From Telopea speciosissima (taxonomy: Eukaryota; Streptophyta; Magnoliopsida; Proteales; Proteaceae): a stretch of DNA of 64,000 nt. Shown in pieces: positions 2,369-36,000 of the stretch. Position 1 is the stretch's first letter. The number at the start of each line of letters is the position of its first letter. A program made the position numbers and the translations under genes. The notes beneath the pieces are model-generated. The model saw nothing but the letters and a program-made list of their open reading frames with translations, ran no database searches and had not been told where the DNA came from. The stretch covers positions 11,482,413 to 11,546,412 of the forward strand of contig NC_057923.1 in NCBI RefSeq assembly GCF_018873765.1, written 5' to 3'.

Positions 2369-3059
2369 TACTTTTGGGATTGGTGTGTGGTTTGTGTGAT
2401 TACACTTTCATCAAAAACAAAACAAAAAAAATTTGCAATCCGAAATCATTTATTGAAATTAAGTCGAATCGTTCAAATGGAAACTCATAAATCGTTTATT
2501 AATCAATTTGATTTTGATTTTAAAAAGTAAAGGCGTTTATTAAAAAACAAAAAGGGGATTGATCATGGCATTCTACATTTGTCCTTAGTGTTTTGTAAAT
2601 GACTTACACCATATAAATTAATTAATTTGTTTAAGTTTAAAGTCACAATTTGAGATTAGATGTCTTGATTTAAGCTAGGGGTGTCAATAAAGCCCGCTCG
2701 GCCCGAACCCGTCCTGAGCCCGGATTCGACCCGACCCTGATTTTTCAGCCCGAAGGGTGGGTCAGGGTTTAGGAGTAGCTTGACCCTGGCAAGGTCGGGT
2801 CGGGATCAGGTTTAGGCCTCGGGTTGAGCCCGGCCCGGCCCTACCCGACCCTGAATTGTTTATAAATAAATATATAGATATATAAATATTTATATATATT
2901 ATATTATTCTTTATCCTAACAAAAAATAATAAAAAAAACACTCAAAAGTCAAAACCCTTGATTTTAAAACTCAAAAACACTCAAAACCCTTGATTTTAAA
3001 ACTCTTTCCCTTCTCTTTCCCTTCATCGGCCGTCCCCAAACCCCATCTCTTTTCCTCTA

Positions 3060-3331
3060 CACGCTGAGAAGTACTTTCCACTGGACTCCACCATCAACGA
3101 GAAGGGACTTCTGTTGAGCTTCGAAAATCGCAACGGCAAACCATGGCGCTTACGATATTCGTACTGGAACATCAGCCAGAGCTATGTGATGACTAAAGGC
3201 TGGAGCTGGTTCGTGAAGGAGAAGAAGCTTGATGCAGGAGACATCGTGTCCTTCGAGTGCGGTGTGGGAGACTTGGGCAAGGACCATGTCTTTATTGACT
3301 GGCGGCACTGCCCTAATACCCATCACTCTTC
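3060..3331 (+). pseudogene. Captured B3 DNA-binding domain fragment (NGATHA/RAV type)
   Basis: Translation from 3060 gives [10 protein letters not shown], then [41 protein letters not shown] and FIDWR, in the order found in the B3 domain of plant NGATHA/RAV-related transcription factors. These proteins bind DNA through B3 and regulate organ growth. The first third of the domain (from about VTPSDVGKLNRL to PKQ) is absent, there is no start codon, and homology begins abruptly at the His codon. After about 3331 the frame stays open to 3497 but I do not recognise the residues. The fragment is uninterrupted across about 90 codons and sits entirely inside the hAT-type element, so it is best read as a captured piece of a host gene, not as a functional gene. 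A few residues differ from the usual consensus, as expected for a relaxed copy. Confidence 0.85.
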
Positions 3332-3544
3332 ATCCTCACTCCAACGACTAGGTCTACCACTCCGTCACCCAGTCTCCCTGGCCGCTCCGCCGCCCGTCCC
3401 ACTTCCATGGAGCCGATTTTTCTGTCTGTACACTTTGTTTCTTGGATTTTCTTCTGGTTTGGAAATTGGATTGAGAGATTTGAGAGGTTTGAAGTGAAGT
3501 TTGAAGGGTTGTTGAGGTTGAGGGTTTTACTTCATCTCTCTCTC

Positions 3545-3928
3545 TACTCTCCCACACATCATCAGGGACAGGGTCAATCAGGGCCAACCCGACCCTATTA
3601 GGGTCGGGTCGGGTTAGGGAAAACCCTGGCAGGGTCGGGTCAGGGTTGAGGGTTTCTTGGCCCTGCCAGGGTTGGGTCAGGGTCAGGGTTTAGGTTAAGG
3701 TCTCTAGGGTCAAGGTCAGGGTTTAGGCAGGCCCGGCCCAACCCTATAGGGTCGGGTCGGGTCGGGTTAGGGAAAACCCTGGAAGGGTCGGGTCAGGGTT
3801 GAGGGTTTCTTGGCCCTGTCAGGGTTTAGGTTAAGGTCTCTAGGGTCAGGGTCAGGGTTTAGGTTAAGGTCTCTAGGGTCAGGGTCAGGGTTTAGGCAGG
3901 CCCAGCCCAACCCGACCCATTGACACCC
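3545..3928. repeat. Tandem GGGTCGGG / GGGTTAGGG-rich array in the hAT-type element
   Basis: A unit containing 'gggtcgggtcgggttaggg', 'aaaaccctgg', 'gagggtttcttggccctg' and 'taaggtctctagggtcagggtc' recurs at least twice, with a shorter internal duplication. Inverse-orientation GGCCCG/GACCC words occupy the opposite end of the element (about 2690-2860), so the two ends could pair. It looks like telomere repeat in places but is not a regular array. Confidence 0.7.
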
Positions 3929-4200
3929 CTAATTTAAGCCCAACAAGAATAGGTTTATTTTTCTAATTGGCCCATAATTATTAACTGGAATTGACAACAA
4001 AACTGAAACTGAAACTGAAAGTCTGAAGTCAATAAAAACGTTTAATTGTGAACTGTTTAAAAACCGCTTAATTGGAACTGTTTATTAGTTGGTTTAGATT
4101 TAGGATATACAAAAACTAACGGAACACATCATTAATTGTTTTGTTTATCGATGTGACACTTCAAAATCCCATCCCTAACATATTCAAAATCCCACCAATT

Positions 4201-4642
4201 AAGCTCCGTTTGTTTAGAGTGGAAGGTGGGGAGGGATTGCTGAAAAGATGAGACCCACATGTTGGCAGGGTTTTGTTTGGATGGAAATATTGACGTAAAG
4301 TAACTAATTTTTTCATGAATAGTAGTCAAAGTCCCACTAATTTAGTAGGATTTTGGATTACAAAATGATGGAATTTTAAAGCGTTACATTAACAGACAAA
4401 GCAATTAATGATGTCCCCGAACTTTTGTAAGTTCACCATCTCAAATTAATCAAACAAGGTTGGTGTGGGATTTTAAAATACCACATCAGTATTTTCCCAT
4501 CCCAAGTCTCTCACTCCACCTAAGTCCCTTCTAAACAAATAGGGTCTTACCATTCATGGAAAAAATAACTTTACCTCACCAACATATGGATCCATCTTCC
4601 CAACAATCCCACCTCAACTTTTTATATAAACAAACGGAGCTT
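4201..4642. mobile_element. Tourist-like (PIF/Harbinger) MITE
   Basis: A perfect 16-bp inverted repeat, AAGCTCCGTTTGTTTA, bounds a 442-bp noncoding body. The flanks read TTA/TTAA on both sides, which fits the 3-bp TTA/TAA duplication of PIF/Harbinger elements, although the palindromic flank makes the exact boundary ambiguous. The 'CTCCGTTTGTTT' end is typical of this class in plants. Confidence 0.75.
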
Positions 4643-8689: not shown

Positions 8690-9460
8690 GCCTTAGGCGT
8701 AGAGCCTCAGTGTTGGCATGACGCCTTAGGCATACAGCCTCAGTGGTGGCATGGCGCCTTAGGCCTGAAGCCTCAGTGTTGGCATGACGCCTTAGGCATA
8801 GAGCCTCAGTGGTGGCATGTTGCCTTAGGCATAAAGCCTCAGTAGTGGCATGAAGCCTCAGGGGTGGCATAACGCCTTAGGCATAGAGCCTCAGTGGTGG
8901 CATAAAGCCTTAGGCATGAAGCCTCAGGGGTGGCATAACGCCTTAGGCATGAAGCCTCAGTGGTGGCATAAAGCCTTAGGCATGAAGCCTCAGGGGTGGC
9001 ATAACGCCTTAGGCATAAAGCCTCAATATTGGCATGTCGCCTTAGGCACGAAGCCTCAGTGTTGGCATATCGCCTTAGGCACGAAGCCTCAGTGTTGGCA
9101 TACCGCCTTAGGCACGAGGCCTCAATGTTGGCATATCGCCTTAGGCACGAAGCCTCAATGTTGGCATACCGCCTTAGGCACGAAGCCTCGATGTTGGCAT
9201 ACCGCCTTAGGCACGAAGCCTCAGTGTTGGCATACCGCCTTAGGCACGAAGCCTCGATGTTGGCATACCGCCTTAGGCACGAAGCCTCGATGTTGGCATA
9301 TCGCCTTAGGCACGAAGCCTCAGTGTTGGCATACCGCCTTAGGCACGAGGCCTCGATGTTGGCATACCGCCTTAGGCACGAAGCCTTAGTGTTGGCATAC
9401 CGCCTTAGGCACGAAGCCTCAGTGTTGGCATACCGCCTTAGGCACGAAGCCTCAGTTGAG
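8690..9460. repeat. 33-bp minisatellite, about 23 copies
   Basis: Units of 33 bp contain 'ccttaggcacgaagcctcag' and 'tgttggcat'. The right-hand copies are very uniform; the left-hand ones are more diverged and some are shortened. Because 33 is a multiple of three, several frames on both strands stay open and give 11-residue repeats such as MLAYRLRHEAS and ANTEASCLRRY. Each unit also contains the imperfect palindrome 'gccttaggc...gaagcctc'. It belongs to the noncoding 3' section of the LTR element. Confidence 0.95.
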
Positions 9461-9559
9461 TAGTAGAAGAAGCCGAGCATTCCCGAATTTTTTTTTCAAT
9501 TCATCCTTGAAACTGTAATGCCATCTACTGCTACTGTTGGTGGTGTCAAACTCCGCTGT

Positions 9560-10800
9560 TGTTATTTCTGCTGATAGTACTTCTTCAAGTATAGTGAGTT
9601 CCAGGTACGGTCTACCTTCTTGCCCCCTGGAGTCTTCAAGCGGTAGGTCCCTGGGCGTATCTGCTTGGAGACTATGTAGGGTCCTTCCCAGTTGGGTGAC
9701 AGCTTCCCTGCCTTCTGTGGATGTGATGCACTTGCCCTCCGTAGTACTAAATCTCCCTGGTGGAATAGCCTTTCCTTGACCCTGGCATTATAGTACCTGA
9801 CAGTACGTTGCTGGTAGGCGACGTTCCTTAGTAGTGTTCTCTCTCGGACCTCATCTATAAAGTCCAGGTTCGCCCGCAGTCTGTCGACATAGGTGCGTTC
9901 ATTGAAGTGCAGAACCCTATGGGACATGGCGCAGACCTCTATCGGTGCCAATGCTTCAGTGCCATATGCTAGGCGGAATGGGCTCTCTCCTGTGGGCGTC
10001 CGTACTGTAGTTCGGTATGCCCACAGGACGTTGGGTAGCTCTTCTACCCACTTGCCTTTGGCTCCTTCTGGCCTTTTCTTGACTCCTTCCAGTAGCGTTC
10101 TGTTGGTGACCTCCACCTGACCATTGGCCTGTGGGTATGCTACCGACACAGGCCGATAGTCGATGTTGTAGCTGTGACAGAATGCTTGGAATTTGGGGTT
10201 GTTGAATTGTCTTCCATTGTCTGAGACGAGGATTCGTGGTACCCCGAACCTGTAGATGACGTCGTCGCGGACGAACTTCTCCATCTCTGTCTCGTTATCT
10301 TGGCCAAGGGTTTAGCTTCAACCCACTTGGTGAAGTAGTCGATCGCGACGACCGGTACTTTCTTTTACGGTGCTGCGGTGAAGTTGCCTAAGATGTCGAG
10401 TCCCCACATGGCAAAAGGTATGGGGTTGAGGATTGATGTCACTTGGTGGCGGGTAGATGGGGTCTTGGGGCGAACAAGCGACATTGCTCGCACTTCTTGG
10501 CATATTGGATGGCCTCCTCTTGCATTCGTGGCCAGTATAGCCCTTGGCGGAGGATTTTGTAGGCTAGGGCTCGTCCCCCCATGTGGCTTCCACATATCCC
10601 TTCATGGACTTCGGCTAGGGCGTACTCTGCCCCCTTGGGTCCTAGGCACCGGAGTAGTGGTGCTGTTGCCCCCCGCTTGTACAGTACCCCGTCTAGGACG
10701 GTGTACTTTGCAGCTCTCATCCTGATCTTCCTTGCCTCGGCCTTGTCTTCTGGTAAGACGTCGTCCTGTAGGTAGTTGAGTATAGGGTCCATCTAGCTAG
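9560..10800 (-). other. Integrase part of the Tat-group element (fossil)
   Basis: The minus strand shows an H2C2 zinc-binding N-terminal segment (HEGICGSHMGG followed by KKCEQC), the catalytic core with VSDNGRQFNN, and a C-terminal segment with GDLVLRR and NWEGPYIV, as in Ty3/gypsy integrases. The order downstream of RNase H supports the family assignment. The part is broken. Confidence 0.9.
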
Positions 10801-11049
10801 GCCCCTCCTCAATTTCATTAACTTTCTTCTCCCGGCATGTTAGCTCATGTAATATTTCCACGTACACTGCATTGGCCAGGTTTCTGAGTTCATCATTGGC
10901 TAGCCTGGACAGTGCATCAACAGTTGCATTCTCGATCCTTAGAACTCGAACCATCTCGAACTTCTTGACCTCGAACCTCGAACCTCGAACCTTGAACTTC
11001 TACCATGGTTTGTCGATTGTGGTCCTTGGCCATGGCCAAAGACCCCCCT

Positions 11050-13060
11050 TTTTATTTTTCTTTCTTCTCTCTTTTCTTCTTTGCTTTTGGGCAGCAGCCT
11101 TTGACGGAAGGCATCCATTCATGAAATTTTATTTTTTTTTCTGGTTCTGTCTCTGGTAAGGTGCATTCAACGACAAAGTCTGCCAAGGCTTGGCCTTTGA
11201 TGGCAGTCCTGGGTTGGAACCTGATGTCATGCTCACTTAACTCCACCGCCCATGCTATCAATCGTCGGAGACGTCCGGCTTGTGCAATATCTTCTTCAAG
11301 GGTAGGTCTGTGAGGACTGTGATGGTATGGGCTTGGAAGTATGGTCGTCGCTTCCTGGCCGCCATTACCAATGCATAGGCTACCTTCTCGATCCTTGTGT
11401 ACCTGGTCTCTGCATCGATCAGGACATGGCTGACGTAGTAGATCGGCCTCTGGACTTTGTCTTCTTCCTTCAGCAGTACTGCGCTGACCGCGACAGGGGT
11501 GGCGGCCAGGTAGAGCTGCAACTCTTCGTTAGGTTCCGGTCGCCCAAGCAAGGGTGGGCTCTCTAGGTACTCCTTCAATTCTCCGAACGCCTTTTGGCAC
11601 TCTTCCGTCCATGTGAAGTTCTTAGGGCTTCGGAGGTTCTTCAATGTTTTGAAGAATGGTAAGCACTTATCACCTGATCGTGACACGAACCTGGAAAGGG
11701 CGGCAACCCTTCCATTCAACCTCTGCACCTCCCTGATCGTTCGAGGAGGTGCCATCTCTTGGATGGCCTTGATCTTGGATGGGTTGGCTTCTATTCCACG
11801 GACTGAGACCATGAACCCCGGGAATTTTCCTGACGTTACACCGAAGGCGCACTTTGCAGGTTTAGCTTCATCCGGTTCCTCCTCGATCGTGAATGCTTCC
11901 TCTAGGTCGGTCAGTCTTGGTTGGTGTGGACGCTTTTCACGAGCATGTCATCCACATATACTTCCATGTTGCGCCCGATCTGCTCCTCGAACATCTTGTT
12001 GACCATTCTCTGATAGGTGGCCCCTGCATTCTTTAACCCGAACGGCATGACGTTGTAGCAGTAGTTCTCTTTGTCCGTCCGGAATGCGGTGTAAGACTCG
12101 TCATCCTCATACATGAGGATCTGGTTGTATCCGGAGTAGGCGTCCATGAAACTCAGCATCTCATGGCCGGCGGTGGCGTCGATCAGTAGGTCGATCCGGG
12201 GCAGTGGATACTCATCTTTTGGGCGTGCCTTGTTCAGGTCGGTGTAGTCGACACACATCCTCCACTTCCCATTTGGCTTTGGTACCATGACCACGTTGGC
12301 GAGCCAGGTTGGGAACTTCTCCTTTCTGATGAACCCTGATCGGCTTAGCTTCTCGACCTCCTCCTTGATTGCTGCTTGTCGGTCGAGGGCGAAGTTACGC
12401 CGCTTCTGTTGAACGGGCTTCCTGGTTGGGTCGACATGTAGTCGGTGTTCCGCTATGGAACGTGGTATTCCTGGCATGTCGGAGGTTGACCATGCGAAGA
12501 CATCTATGTTTGCTTGGAGGAGGTGTCCAAGTTCTTCTTTCTGTTCCTTGCTTAGCAGTGAGCCGACCTGAACGACCTTGGAGGGGTCATCCTGGCTGAG
12601 TGGCCATGGGATGAGGTCTTCCACTGGCCTTCCCCTTCTCTCTGTCAGCTCATCTCTCTGGTCACTGATCATGCTCTCTAGGCAGAGTGCCACTCCACGG
12701 GTGTTGCCATTATTCTTTTTCATGAAGGTGGCGTAGCACTCCCTTGCCTTCTTCTGATCTCCTCGGACTTCGCCTACCCCGTTCTCGGTGGGGAACTTCA
12801 TCTTCAGGTGAAGTGGTGATATGACTCCTCTAAGGGCTGTCAGTGATGGTCGCCCTAAGAGGCCGTTGAAGGACACCACGGACTTGACTACCATGAAATT
12901 TACCATGATGGTTACTTGTTGAGGGTGTACCCCGAAGGTGACGGGTAGCTCTATGGTACCTCTGATGGAGGCGGTGGCACCTGAGAATCCATGGAGATAA
13001 GTGGGCTCTGGTTTGAGCTGGTCGTCCCCGAACCCGAATTGTCGATAGGCGTCCAAGGAG
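11050..13060 (-). other. Protease, reverse transcriptase and RNase H part (fossil)
   Basis: The minus strand shows the RT landmarks WRMCVDYTDLNKA, MPFGLKNAGATYQRM and VYVDDMLVKS (the YVDD catalytic box), then the RNase H landmark PIYYVSHVL. The sequence just upstream (TFGVHPQQVTIMVNFMVV and VVSFNGLLGRPSLTAL) fits the retropepsin-like region. The part is broken. Short A/T runs around 11050-11150 interrupt the otherwise GC-rich composition. Confidence 0.9.
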
Positions 13061-13084
13061 AGTACGTCAACGGACGCCCTGTGT

Positions 13085-15230
13085 CTATCGTGCCACGTGT
13101 GCAGGTCGATTGGCTACCTCCACCTGTACTACCAGGGCATCTTCATGCGGGAAGTTTAGTCCTTCCAAGTCTTCATCCGAGAAGGAGATCACCGCCTCAG
13201 TCTTGGCTATCTTGCTGGGCTTCTCTGCCACTCCCACGAACCTGGCATGAGCTTTTGCTTTTCTGGTGGACTCTTGCCCTGGTCCTCCAAGTATGGTGAG
13301 GATAGGAGGTCCCTTGGTGCCACTAGGTTCTGTGGCATCTCTCCGCTCTTCTGGGCGGTCTCTCTCTCGATCTGTTCTTCTTTCTTCTCGTCTCGGCTCC
13401 ACTCTGTCTCCGTCGCGACCTCTATCTCCTTGGCCTGAGCGGTTGTCACGTCTCCCCTTCACATACTTGTTCAAGCTTCCTGCTTTTACCAGTTGTTCTA
13501 TCTCTCTCTTCAATTGATAGCACTCCTCTGTGTCGTGCCCATTCTCTTTGTGGAAGAGACAATATTTGTTAGGGTTTCGCTTCTCTGGCGCTGCTAGCAT
13601 GGGTCGTGGCCAATGGAGTAGGTCACGGTCCTGGATCTGCATGATGTATACGGGACTGGTGGTGTTGATGGTGTGAACTCGGGGGTGCTTGCCCTCTCAC
13701 TTCTCTGCGGCGGCGGTCTGTCCTCCTGGATGGGCGGTCGCTCTGCTCTTGTCGGTGCTCTGTCCTCGACCTCTTACCCTCTTTGCGGTCATCAGGTGCT
13801 GGCCTCTTGTTGTCCTGTGGCTTGGCCTCGATTATTTTTGTTCTAGCTTGTAGTACCTCGGCCATATTTGCAAACTCGTTGCACCGCTCCAGGAGCTCTT
13901 TCATAGTCCTGGTCTCATGACGTGCCAGGTCCTTGATCAAGTCCAGGTCCCTAATACCTCCTGCTAGGGCTGCATGCTGTGTCTGGTCATCCAAGTCCCG
14001 AACCTCCAGGGACTCCTTGGTGAACCTGGTAACGTATTCCCTGAGAGATTCCCCAGGGTTCTGTACCACGTTTAGTAGATTGACGGTGGTCTTCTTTACG
14101 CTTGTGTTGCTTTGGAAACGGGTGACGAACTGTTCACATAGCTCTGCAAGCGAGCATATAGATCTCGGTCGTAGCCTGGAGAACCATGATGTGGCTGCTC
14201 CCTTAAGGGACGCAGGGAATGCCCGACAGGATACCACGTCCGACCCCCCATACAGCGTCATCATGCCATTAAAGTAGTTGATGTGGTCATTAGGGTCAGT
14301 GGTACCACTGTAGAGTTCAAAGGTGGGTAGTCGAAACCTGGAAGGTAGTGTGGCTGACATGATCTCTGCCGAGAATGGGTGTTGTCCAGGTATGGAATGT
14401 GTCTCGCCTTTGGTCTGCTTCTTCAACCCTTCCAGCTTCTCATCCAGGTCGCGGAGTCTTTGATCGAGCTCCTCGTCCCTTGTCTGCCCCCCACGCCTAG
14501 CCGGACGTTCGCTGCGGCCCCGTTCACGCTCTCTCCTGGATGTCCCCTCCCGCCTTGAGTGTTGGCGGGATGGTGAATGGTCATGCCGTGATGAACCCTG
14601 TCGTGAAGGTGAGGGGCTTTCTTCTCTGTAGGTCCGGCTTCGTCGTGGTATGTGACTTTCTTCCAGTCGTCCGTCAAACACGGACCTCCGGACCGATCTC
14701 TGCGGGCTAGACACCCTCGCCCTGGGTGTTGGCGTCCTCCCACGTTCTGACCGTGGTGAGAGGTCTCTTGTTCTCCTGGGATGCTGGGAAGGCTCCCCCC
14801 GCTGCGGAGTGGGGGTTGCCTGTCGCGCAAGTCTCTCTGATCTCGCGGCCCTGGGAGATGATCTCCTAGGGTTTGGCTCTTGTTGAGGTATGGACTCCAC
14901 CCTTGCTGCTGGTGAAGTCCTCCGACGGTGAGATGTCGCACGCTGCGTCGGGTATTCTCGAAAGAGTCGTTGTTCATCGAGGATCTGTCGTTGCAGGTCG
15001 TTGATCGACCCACGATGGGCTGGAGCATTGGGGTCAGGTGTCACCTCCACCACCACATCGTTGGCCTCGTTATTGTTGGGCTCGGCGATCACGAACTGGT
15101 CATTAAGGGGGATCTCCTCCTCCAGAGGGACATGGTCCTGGTCGTTGGCTCTGCGGCGAGAGCCCTCTGGGGGTGGTGATCCATTCCTTGCTCCGTTGTT
15201 GGTGGTGGTAGTCTTCCTTCGTGCCATTGA
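13085..15230 (-). other. Gag part of the Tat-group element (fossil)
   Basis: A long Arg/Ser/Pro-rich head is followed by the retrotransposon gag core (LPTFELYSGTTDPNDHI, FPASLKGAATSWFSRL, SLREYVTRF), then a charged linker and a zinc-knuckle-like segment (CLFHKENGHDTEECYQLK). The order and motifs are those of plant Tat/Athila-group Gag. The part is broken. Confidence 0.9.
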
Positions 15231-32511: not shown

Positions 32512-32894
32512 TAGGGGTGTCCAAAGTCGTCCCAAACCGATGAAATCGAACCAAATCTATCGAAATCAGTCAGTATCAAGTTTGATATAAGTTTATTGTA
32601 TCATGTTTTAGAATAGAGCTTTGCGACACCACATCCAAGCTAGATCGCACCAAAATCAATCTTAGAAAACTGAACTGAAACCAAACCCAAACCAATAAGA
32701 AATTAATATTAGACCGAAATTCATTAAAAACACACACACACACACACATTTTTTCATACTTAGGAATATATTTTCATGGTGTAACTGAACATGAACCAAT
32801 ATCGAACCAAATCGATGCATCTTTATTGGATCATGTTTTGGACACACTCATTCTCACCCCGAAACTGATGAAATCGACCGATTTGACATCCCTA
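32512..32894. mobile_element. hAT-type MITE, TAGGGGTGTC family
   Basis: The left end is TAGGGGTGTCCAAA and the right end TTTGACATCCCTA; the flanking 8-mers are ATTCTGGT and ATTGTGGT (7 of 8). The body is noncoding and contains a (CA)n run at about 32730-32748. It shares its ends with the gene-carrying element at 2676-3931. Confidence 0.8.
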
Positions 32895-34975: not shown

Positions 34976-36000
34976 TAGTGAGGCTACCCTCTCTCTATCT
35001 GTATCTTTTCTTCACATGAAATGACCTCGCTGTTCTTTCATATACGAAATCATTTTGTCATACAATCATTAGTGCATTCCTCTATGCCACTTGCTCAAAG
35101 AACCCTTTCCTCTACATTGATTAGGGGTGTCAATGGGCCGGTTCAGGGTTCAGGCTTTTTGGTTTCGATGTGACTTTTATAGAAATCGAAACCAAACCAT
35201 TAAGAAATGTTCGGTTTCAATGCGGTTTCGGTTTCGGTGCGATTTGGTTTCGTGTCGGTTTCGATTTATGATAACGGGTTGATATCGGTTTGGTACCGAC
35301 TTTATATAACTAGTAAGGTCCGATTAGTGCTAATTTTTCTTCTCTTTCTCTTTTAAGTACATAAAATATTTCAAATACAATGCATCTTTGTATCCTATGT
35401 CCTATGGCCTATGGATACAATTGATTGGGTAATCACTAACAAAGGATATGAGATAAAGTGAGAAACTATCACAACACATTTAGGGGGCAATGGGGCATTA
35501 GGCATTTACTGATTTACTCATTTATCGGGTTAGGCCGGTTCGGTTTGGGTTCGGACCTAACGGTTCGGACTACCGATGCACCGTCGGGCTAGCCCAAACC
35601 AAACCAAACCGTTTGCCTTTCTGGATCCACAAACTGAACCCGAACCATTAAGAGTTCGATCCGGTGTGGTCCGGGCTCGTTCGGGCTGGTTCGGGTCGAT
35701 TTCATCGGTTCAAGTTGGGTATTGACACCCCTAATATTGATTGTAATCGTAAAAGACATCATTGATAATTTGGCTGAAAAACTTCCGAGAAACTATTTCC
35801 CTCTCATATGTGATTCTTTATTATTTTTCTTTCTCAGCTACTCTGACCATGTGAGATCCATATGAATGATTCAATTGTTCTCTCTACCATTGGTGTGATG
35901 TGCAGATTCTTCCCCACACTGTCGTGTGAAATCCCCTCCTTATTTATTCTTTAAAGGGGACTGGTGGATCATAGGGCCCAGCAGCATGTGTAGCAAAACC
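34976..36000. repeat. Dispersed repeat, copy B (interrupted by a hAT-type MITE)
   Basis: This is the partner of copy A at 30655-31250. It lies directly upstream of the UGT gene, so part of the promoter of that gene is repeat-derived. Shorter relatives ('cacatga.atgatctcactgcccttctatgtacgat') occur at about 36530-36575 and 36890-36935. Confidence 0.8.
35122..35733. mobile_element. hAT-type MITE, TAGGGGTGTC family
   Basis: The ends are TAGGGGTGTCAATGGGCCGG and ATTGACACCCCTA; the flanking 8-mers are ACATTGAT (35114-35121) and ATATTGAT (35734-35741). The related empty site AAATTGAT at 30787-30794 in copy A confirms the insertion. The 612-bp body is rich in 'ggtttcgg' and 'ggttcggg' words, with no coding content. 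Confidence 0.88.

Follow-up and report, generated by a model that had tools for sequence, protein, structure and literature searches.

This locus raises the question of whether a DNA transposon of Telopea speciosissima has taken up part of a host transcription factor gene and, if it has, by what steps. In the window, by which we mean the whole stretch of 64,000 nucleotides that was analysed, we found an element of 1256 bp on the plus strand (2676-3931) that is bounded by 13-bp terminal inverted repeats, TAGGGGTGTCAAT on the left (2676-2688, plus strand) and ATTGACACCCCTA on the right (3919-3931, plus strand), the second being the exact reverse complement of the first (13/13). It is flanked by an 8-bp target-site duplication, ATTTAAGC, whose left copy (2668-2675) and right copy (3932-3939) are identical (8/8). 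Short inverted ends and an exact 8-bp duplication are the features by which a hAT element is recognized, and the initial annotation of this DNA had described both correctly. When all 64 kb were scanned for exact 8-bp repeats around ends complementary at 11 or more of 13 positions and spaced 150-3000 bp apart, this element was the sole result and the same scan with a reversed-but-not-complemented control returned 0, so the element cannot be put down to chance. Alignment and the depth profile delimit a left family end with GGGTC-type subterminal repeats (2676-3059, plus strand), a scaffold that is also present in elements lacking the B3 piece described below, while alignment and repeat families delimit a right family end with GGGTC-type repeats (3564-3931, plus strand), which in the window copy includes about 169 bp of additional tandem duplication relative to the four other B3 copies. 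The longest frame inside the element is the B3 frame, with 165 codons, and the next has 111; as both are too short for a hAT transposase, the element is non-autonomous.

Between these ends lies a captured fragment of an NGATHA-type B3 gene (3060-3422, plus strand), 363 bp or 121 codons in frame without a start codon. We searched the 823-Mb genome of the plant itself, which comprises 1287 contigs, with 2668-3939 and scored the 40 best of 1845 candidates. Among them was a parent locus on contig C6 (68079331-68079693, positions 3332-3694 of the extracted locus L009) that is 95.3% identical to 3060-3422 and does not match the element beyond that stretch. A second locus matching only the B3 part, among the same 40 candidates, lies on contig C1 and is 76% identical to 3060-3422. 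Of the 20 bases directly inside each edge, 19 are identical to the parent, compared with 5 of 20 directly outside the left edge and 4 of 20 outside the right; the last four bases of 3060-3422 match after a mismatch, possibly by chance, which leaves the right edge ambiguous. The search for a parent gene with comparable breakpoints that the initial annotation had suggested thus returned one with sharp edges on both sides, and no B3 homology was seen to run past the element.

The parent on C6 has a 540-aa open frame beginning with ATG, in which B3 is the single Pfam domain and no AP2 domain was detected by Pfam at E 0.001. The fragment itself matches Pfam B3 with an E value of 1.3e-15 over profile positions 30-85 of 101, and its best PDB match is NGA1 (5os9). 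Because the parent has B3 without AP2 in Pfam and the fragment's best solved relative is NGA1, we refer to the parent as NGATHA-type; a RAV gene was rejected as the source since the parent frame lacks an AP2 domain, and of the earlier label "NGATHA/RAV-type" only the first half is retained. Both fragment edges fall within the one uninterrupted parent frame, and since the captured stretch is intronless in the parent, a DNA template cannot be distinguished from an RNA template. The parent frame also includes an RLFGV motif that is absent from the element, which holds 121 parent codons only. In the window the B3 frame measures 165 codons from stop to stop (3000-3497), with no in-frame ATG ahead of its B3 part, and the piece lacks the start of the B3 domain, so that neither the start codon nor the full B3 domain of a functional NGATHA gene is present. 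The initial annotation had been right about the B3 motifs inside the element, about an open frame and about homology that starts abruptly without a start codon, as the drop in identity and the missing upstream ATG both attest. Its length of about 90 codons for the open stretch was too short, and the homology that it placed at 3060-3331 begins where stated and extends to 3422.

The same genome search revealed four further near-full copies that carry the B3 fragment, one on C1, two on C7 and one on C10, at 87-90% identity; since scoring covered the 40 best of 1845 candidates, the number of copies is at least five. Each of the five has a perfect target duplication (8/8), all five duplications differ, and the copies have common fragment edges with no indel across the 363 bp. 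One capture event was therefore inherited by five dispersed copies, and the other copies with the same ends and fragment that the initial annotation had proposed to look for exist, each in its own 8-bp duplication. Five substitutions relative to the parent are common to all five copies. At three of these sites the paralogue has the parental base, which dates the changes to the time between capture and spread, a dating to be read with caution for the one site that lies three bases from the right edge. At a fourth site (L009 3602) the paralogue sides with the copies, which places the change in the parent, and at the fifth it carries neither of the two bases. Divergence is 3.3-5.2% between the copies and the parent and 4.1-6.3% among the copies. 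Paralogous uninterrupted sites, the empty sites likewise anticipated, were found for two insertions. When the flanks of one further copy (L014) were joined, 38 of 40 rows ran uninterrupted across the junction at 77-87% identity, the remaining 2 being the two halves of the site itself; for the joined flanks of the window element, 26 of 41 rows ran across positions 140-160 at 67-80% identity, and the window insertion site is an old dispersed repeat. That a hAT element captured part of an NGATHA-type B3 gene is supported by the C6 parent, the five carriers, their five perfect and different duplications and their common edges, and the observation behind the initial annotation is confirmed as real.

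The window element is, beyond what the initial annotation saw, a chimera of two genes. Adjoining the B3 fragment is the remnant of an older captured fragment (3417-3563, minus strand) that is 90.5% identical over 147 aligned columns to positions 2874-3011 of a locus on contig C10 (L029) and whose first ~6 bp overlap the B3 edge. The C10 stretch comprises, on the opposite strand, the upstream region and first part of a 280-aa frame, for which no Pfam match was found at E 0.1. Sister elements (L015, L016, L018, L019) have the same left and right scaffold and a different interior, and a further one (L017) has, by its matches, the same scaffold with the same different interior as the L018 group. 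The whole C10 fragment is present in L018 (L029 2656-3011, 356 bp, 89.5%), and the last 138 bp of this 356-bp match are also found in the window element at 3417-3563. Target duplications are 8/8 in L018 and 7/8 in L019, and no matching duplication was found in L015 and L016. Besides L015-L019, most of this interior occurred only at C10:45983155-45983377 (best 40 of 121 candidates scored). Internal pieces derived from host genes elsewhere, here the C6 NGATHA-type gene and the C10 frame, together with several copies having common ends, here at least five B3 copies and 703 genome matches to the left end, place the element among those described as Pack-TYPE.

The right edge of the C10 piece is identical in the B3 group and in the C10 group, which points to a single capture of the C10 piece whose left part was later replaced by the B3 piece. 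In a tree of the left 260 bp (46 sequences), the five B3 copies group together with a support of 0.888 and the B3 copies plus the four C10-fragment elements with 0.968. The distance between the two groups is uneven along the element: 9.3% at element positions 1-255 (6.2% and 7.3% within groups), 19.2% at positions 256-382 (6.0% and 2.3%) and 2.4% in the C10-derived part at 748-888 (2.0% and 2.9%). Judging from this unevenness, the replaced tract may begin further left than the B3 piece, near position 256, or the left part may derive from another family member. As a rule, Pack-type capture has to be deduced from its final products. Here the states before and after, the whole C10 piece and the C10 piece partly replaced by B3, coexist in one genome and make it possible to read the edges and the probable sequence of events.

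The frame is still open over all 121 codons in four of the five copies, and L011 has a stop at codon 119. Private substitutions in the five copies amount to 26 nonsynonymous, 8 synonymous and 1 stop, a count that omits eight sites where two or three copies differ from the parent, compared with a neutral expectation of 21.5, 10.9 and 2.6 when the same kinds of change were redrawn over the ancestral fragment. This comparison of observed with redrawn substitutions across five copies gave no sign of purifying selection on the B3 fragment. C-to-T or G-to-A changes account for 25 of the 35 private changes, and 14 of these 25 are at CG sites; CG makes up 44 of the 202 cytosines on both strands, and changes at CG are thus over-represented, a bias as would be expected of methylated, silenced DNA. 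Neither the start codon, the coverage of the B3 domain nor the substitutions showed any sign of a working B3 gene in the element, and the apparently neutral decay of the fragment gives no support for a protein function.

Taken together, we consider it very probable that the window element is a Pack-type non-autonomous hAT element with an older C10 capture, a B3 replacement, mobilisation in trans to at least five sites and neutral decay. In such a history, a family member would have gained ~360 bp of the C10 gene, and during break repair inside an element of this kind synthesis would have switched onto the NGATHA exon and back at matches of about 2 bp, replacing the left part of the C10 piece with the B3 piece. 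A zf-BED/hAT transposase from related elements would then have moved the chimera in trans to five or more sites, where the copies would be decaying without protein-level constraint, as methylated, silenced DNA. By eye, the edges do match over 2 bp, GC on the left and TT on the right, which is too short to serve as proof of template switching. Other points that weigh against this history are the uneven distances between the two groups, the lack of a matching duplication in L015 and L016, and the four B3 frames that are still open. The reading in which two family insertions came to flank the NGATHA exon segment and were moved as one unit has a precedent, as PMC8903248 gives this model for Pack-TYPE elements, hAT included. 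We nevertheless regard it as improbable for the window element, since there are no inner family ends beside the B3 piece, the B3 piece replaces the left part of the C10 piece rather than being added to it, and both edges lie within one uninterrupted frame. The 7-kb parent locus moreover holds only loose 12-base matches to the ends (two or fewer mismatches; L009 146, 581, 1526 and 2481), none of them less than 800 bp from the captured stretch.

A pseudogene that never moved and is surrounded by hAT-like repeat by chance would account for the repetitive surroundings and for nothing else; it is refuted by the existence of four more complete copies, which have the same edges and each a perfect duplication of its own, and empty-site paralogues exist, which leaves it practically no chance. 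Another proposal is that the fragment would serve the element or its host, as a source of small RNAs acting on the NGATHA parent or as a translated B3 peptide; the initial annotation had suggested that the fragment could, if transcribed, yield small RNAs or provide a raw exon. An open frame in 4/5 copies is compatible with the peptide, and 95% identity over 363 bp should in principle suffice for small-RNA cross-targeting. We nonetheless think this unlikely, because no in-frame ATG lies upstream, profile positions 30-85 of 101 are all that remains of a B3 domain that has lost its N-terminal part, and the substitutions look neutral. Capture followed by dispersal and decay is the reading that we retain. 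For the host, a 363-bp piece 95% identical to an NGATHA-type gene, a regulator of flower development, in five silenced-looking copies makes a case of possible small-RNA cross-talk.

The element belongs to a large family. A 21-bp left-end word starting with TAGGGGTGTCAAT had 703 matches in the genome at two or fewer mismatches, and its reversed-pattern control had 0. In the window plus 60 loci, which were not a random sample (most were picked because they resemble the window element, and three represent genes), an element was counted as closed if it had a right end and a target duplication agreeing at six or more of eight positions. This gave 43 closed elements, with duplications of 8/8 in 38, 7/8 in four and 6/8 in one, which fell into 14 single-linkage clusters (85% mutual coverage of the whole element). 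Among 20 loci taken from the first 22 left ends on C1, 16 were closed, 12 of them 535-786 bp long and 4 of them 1303-1986 bp. In three loci without a right end in the stretch examined (L057, L058, L061), inspection by eye revealed no long frame like that of a transposase. A hAT transposase frame was found at L074; it runs for 731 aa without interruption and has zf-BED, hAT RNase-H and Dimer_Tnp_hAT domains. Window positions 3732-3931 are 86.6% identical over 202 columns to the right end beside this frame, with an identical 13-bp terminus. As no left end was found in the 946 bp upstream of the frame, we regard L074 as a relative rather than a proven autonomous partner. In a separate genome search, 17 places matched just the final ~200 bases of its query, and 9 of them are 600-710 bp away from a match to PF05699 (Dimer_Tnp_hAT), a figure that rests on comparing two tables and on a genome search in which the best 150 of 1799 candidates were scored.

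Other clusters have donors of their own. Elements of the L037 cluster carry pieces of an F-box gene (L072, 92%; Pfam F-box) and of a C4 locus (L071, 94-96%), and those of the L025 cluster carry pieces of a gene on C5 (L070, 92%) and of a gene on C4 (L069). The L070 piece consists of the coding start and the first bases of an apparent intron; the C5 gene is presumably BOI-like, and its peptide had no Pfam match at E 0.1. A gap between L037 and its donor L071 was rejected as a missing intron, being deletion-like between short repeats and without GT-AG ends. For the interiors of L040 and L030 the genome search found only family copies and partial matches as possible donors, and the L052 interior had two partial matches at 86%. 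The 850-bp interior of L062 occurs at 7 places at 93-100%, with partial matches of lower identity elsewhere, and only L062 itself was read as an element; L073 was rejected as its donor as it also matches the family end region.

Elsewhere in the window, a 612-bp unit (35122-35733) shares the 13-bp ends and is flanked by a target duplication that agrees at 7/8 positions, ACATTGAT/ATATTGAT; a BLAST comparison with the 43 collected elements gave no match for it at E 1e-5. Similar ends (TAGGGGTGTCCAA and TTTGACATCCCTA) stand 383 bp apart at 32512-32894 between flanking words that agree at 7/8 positions, ATTCTGGT/ATTGTGGT. Directly downstream of the element, at ~4201-4642, is a MITE-like unit with inverted ends, AAGCTCCGTTTGTTTA and TAAACAAACGGAGCTT. 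A tandem array at 8839-9480 encodes repeated peptides (EASCLRRYANT and similar) in several frames, and minus-strand frames at 9562-15227, judged by eye from their translations, resemble gag and pol genes such as LTR retrotransposons have.

In four relatives of the window element (L023, L025, L027 and L028), and not in the window element itself, the C4 gene fragment is intron-less: exons of L069 are joined and three introns, of 74 bp (GC-AG), 81 bp (GT-AG) and 124 bp (GT-AG), are exactly missing. These splice sites are among the best placements of the junctions, which can be shifted to one to three equivalent positions. The insert, at ~1003-1278 of the L025 element when compared with L069, is flanked by two copies of a 14-bp direct repeat, CTTCGTTTGGACTT, exact in three of the elements and with one mismatch in L027. 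An element with the same C5 piece (L048) has one CTTCGTTTGGACTT-like word near 1284, with one mismatch and no insert, and could be either the earlier state or the product of a deletion between the repeats. The six longest matches to the insert are all family elements, four of them being the relatives just named; C7:44391737 (L077) is 88% identical to L025 and has family ends, and a listed left end adjoins C4:61820662. Outside the family, an intron-less copy at C9:6325384-6325526 (L076) is 76% identical to the insert and extends further along the gene. As L069 is 98% identical, L076 is not the direct source of the insert, but it shows that spliced copies of the L069 gene have entered the genome. 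The spliced C4 peptide had no Pfam match at E 0.1 and one PDB match, at E 0.17.

Given the L076 copy, the direct repeat of 14 bp and the arrangement in L048, retroposition is a simpler reading of the C4 piece than RNA-templated repair. On this simplest reading of the sequences, the piece would be a retroposed mRNA that was inserted in a hAT element and then carried along. We are evenly divided on whether the family as a whole acts as a serial assembler, in which host pieces inside the same element would be replaced or added by at least two routes, DNA template switching, as with B3 over C10, and uptake of a copy of spliced RNA. The family allows one to ask how often RNA-derived copies enter DNA transposons.

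MULEs make 9-11-bp target duplications and often have long ends, and Helitrons are not known to have a target duplication or inverted ends. A Pack-MULE reading of the window element was rejected on its 8-bp duplication and 13-bp inverted ends, and a Helitron reading was rejected as a target duplication and inverted ends are both present. Rice Pack-MULEs and maize Helitrons are like the window element in being DNA transposons that shuffle gene fragments, and they belong to different superfamilies; both are named in PMC8903248. Compared with the NGATHA B3 genes of plants, the C6 parent has a B3 and no AP2 domain, and the element holds only 121 codons.

The initial annotation held that hAT carriers of host fragments are much less often reported; Pack-hAT elements have, however, already been annotated in maize and rice (PMC8903248). 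In the literature searched, the term Pack-hAT occurred in PMC8903248 and PMC8277862 only, and capture of an NGATHA gene by a hAT transposon was absent from the titles and opening lines of abstracts that were found. As described in PMC8903248, Pack-hAT elements resemble the window element in being non-autonomous and multi-copy, with hAT-like ends, an 8-bp duplication and host coding DNA. The same paper proposes fusion of neighbouring insertions as the general route and describes the stepwise addition of gene pieces for a PIF cluster, whereas here a newer fragment replaced part of an older one; and while the word intron does not occur in the main text of PMC8903248, a sister lineage here has an intron-less fragment. 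PMC8277862 supports gap filling with template switching in animals, with edge matches of median 2 bp, and its pipeline discarded by design intron-less captures from multi-exon parents. As presented there, animal Pack-TIRs are similar to the window element in their short-match internal edges, in having the piece inside the element and, in the multi-copy cases, in later amplification, and they differ in having animal hosts and in being mostly single-copy. Replacement of part of an old piece by the B3 fragment and the lack of inner ends make the template-switching route a better fit for the window element than the fusion route. The Pack-hAT kind is thus already described, and what distinguishes the window element within it is a nested and unusually readable record.
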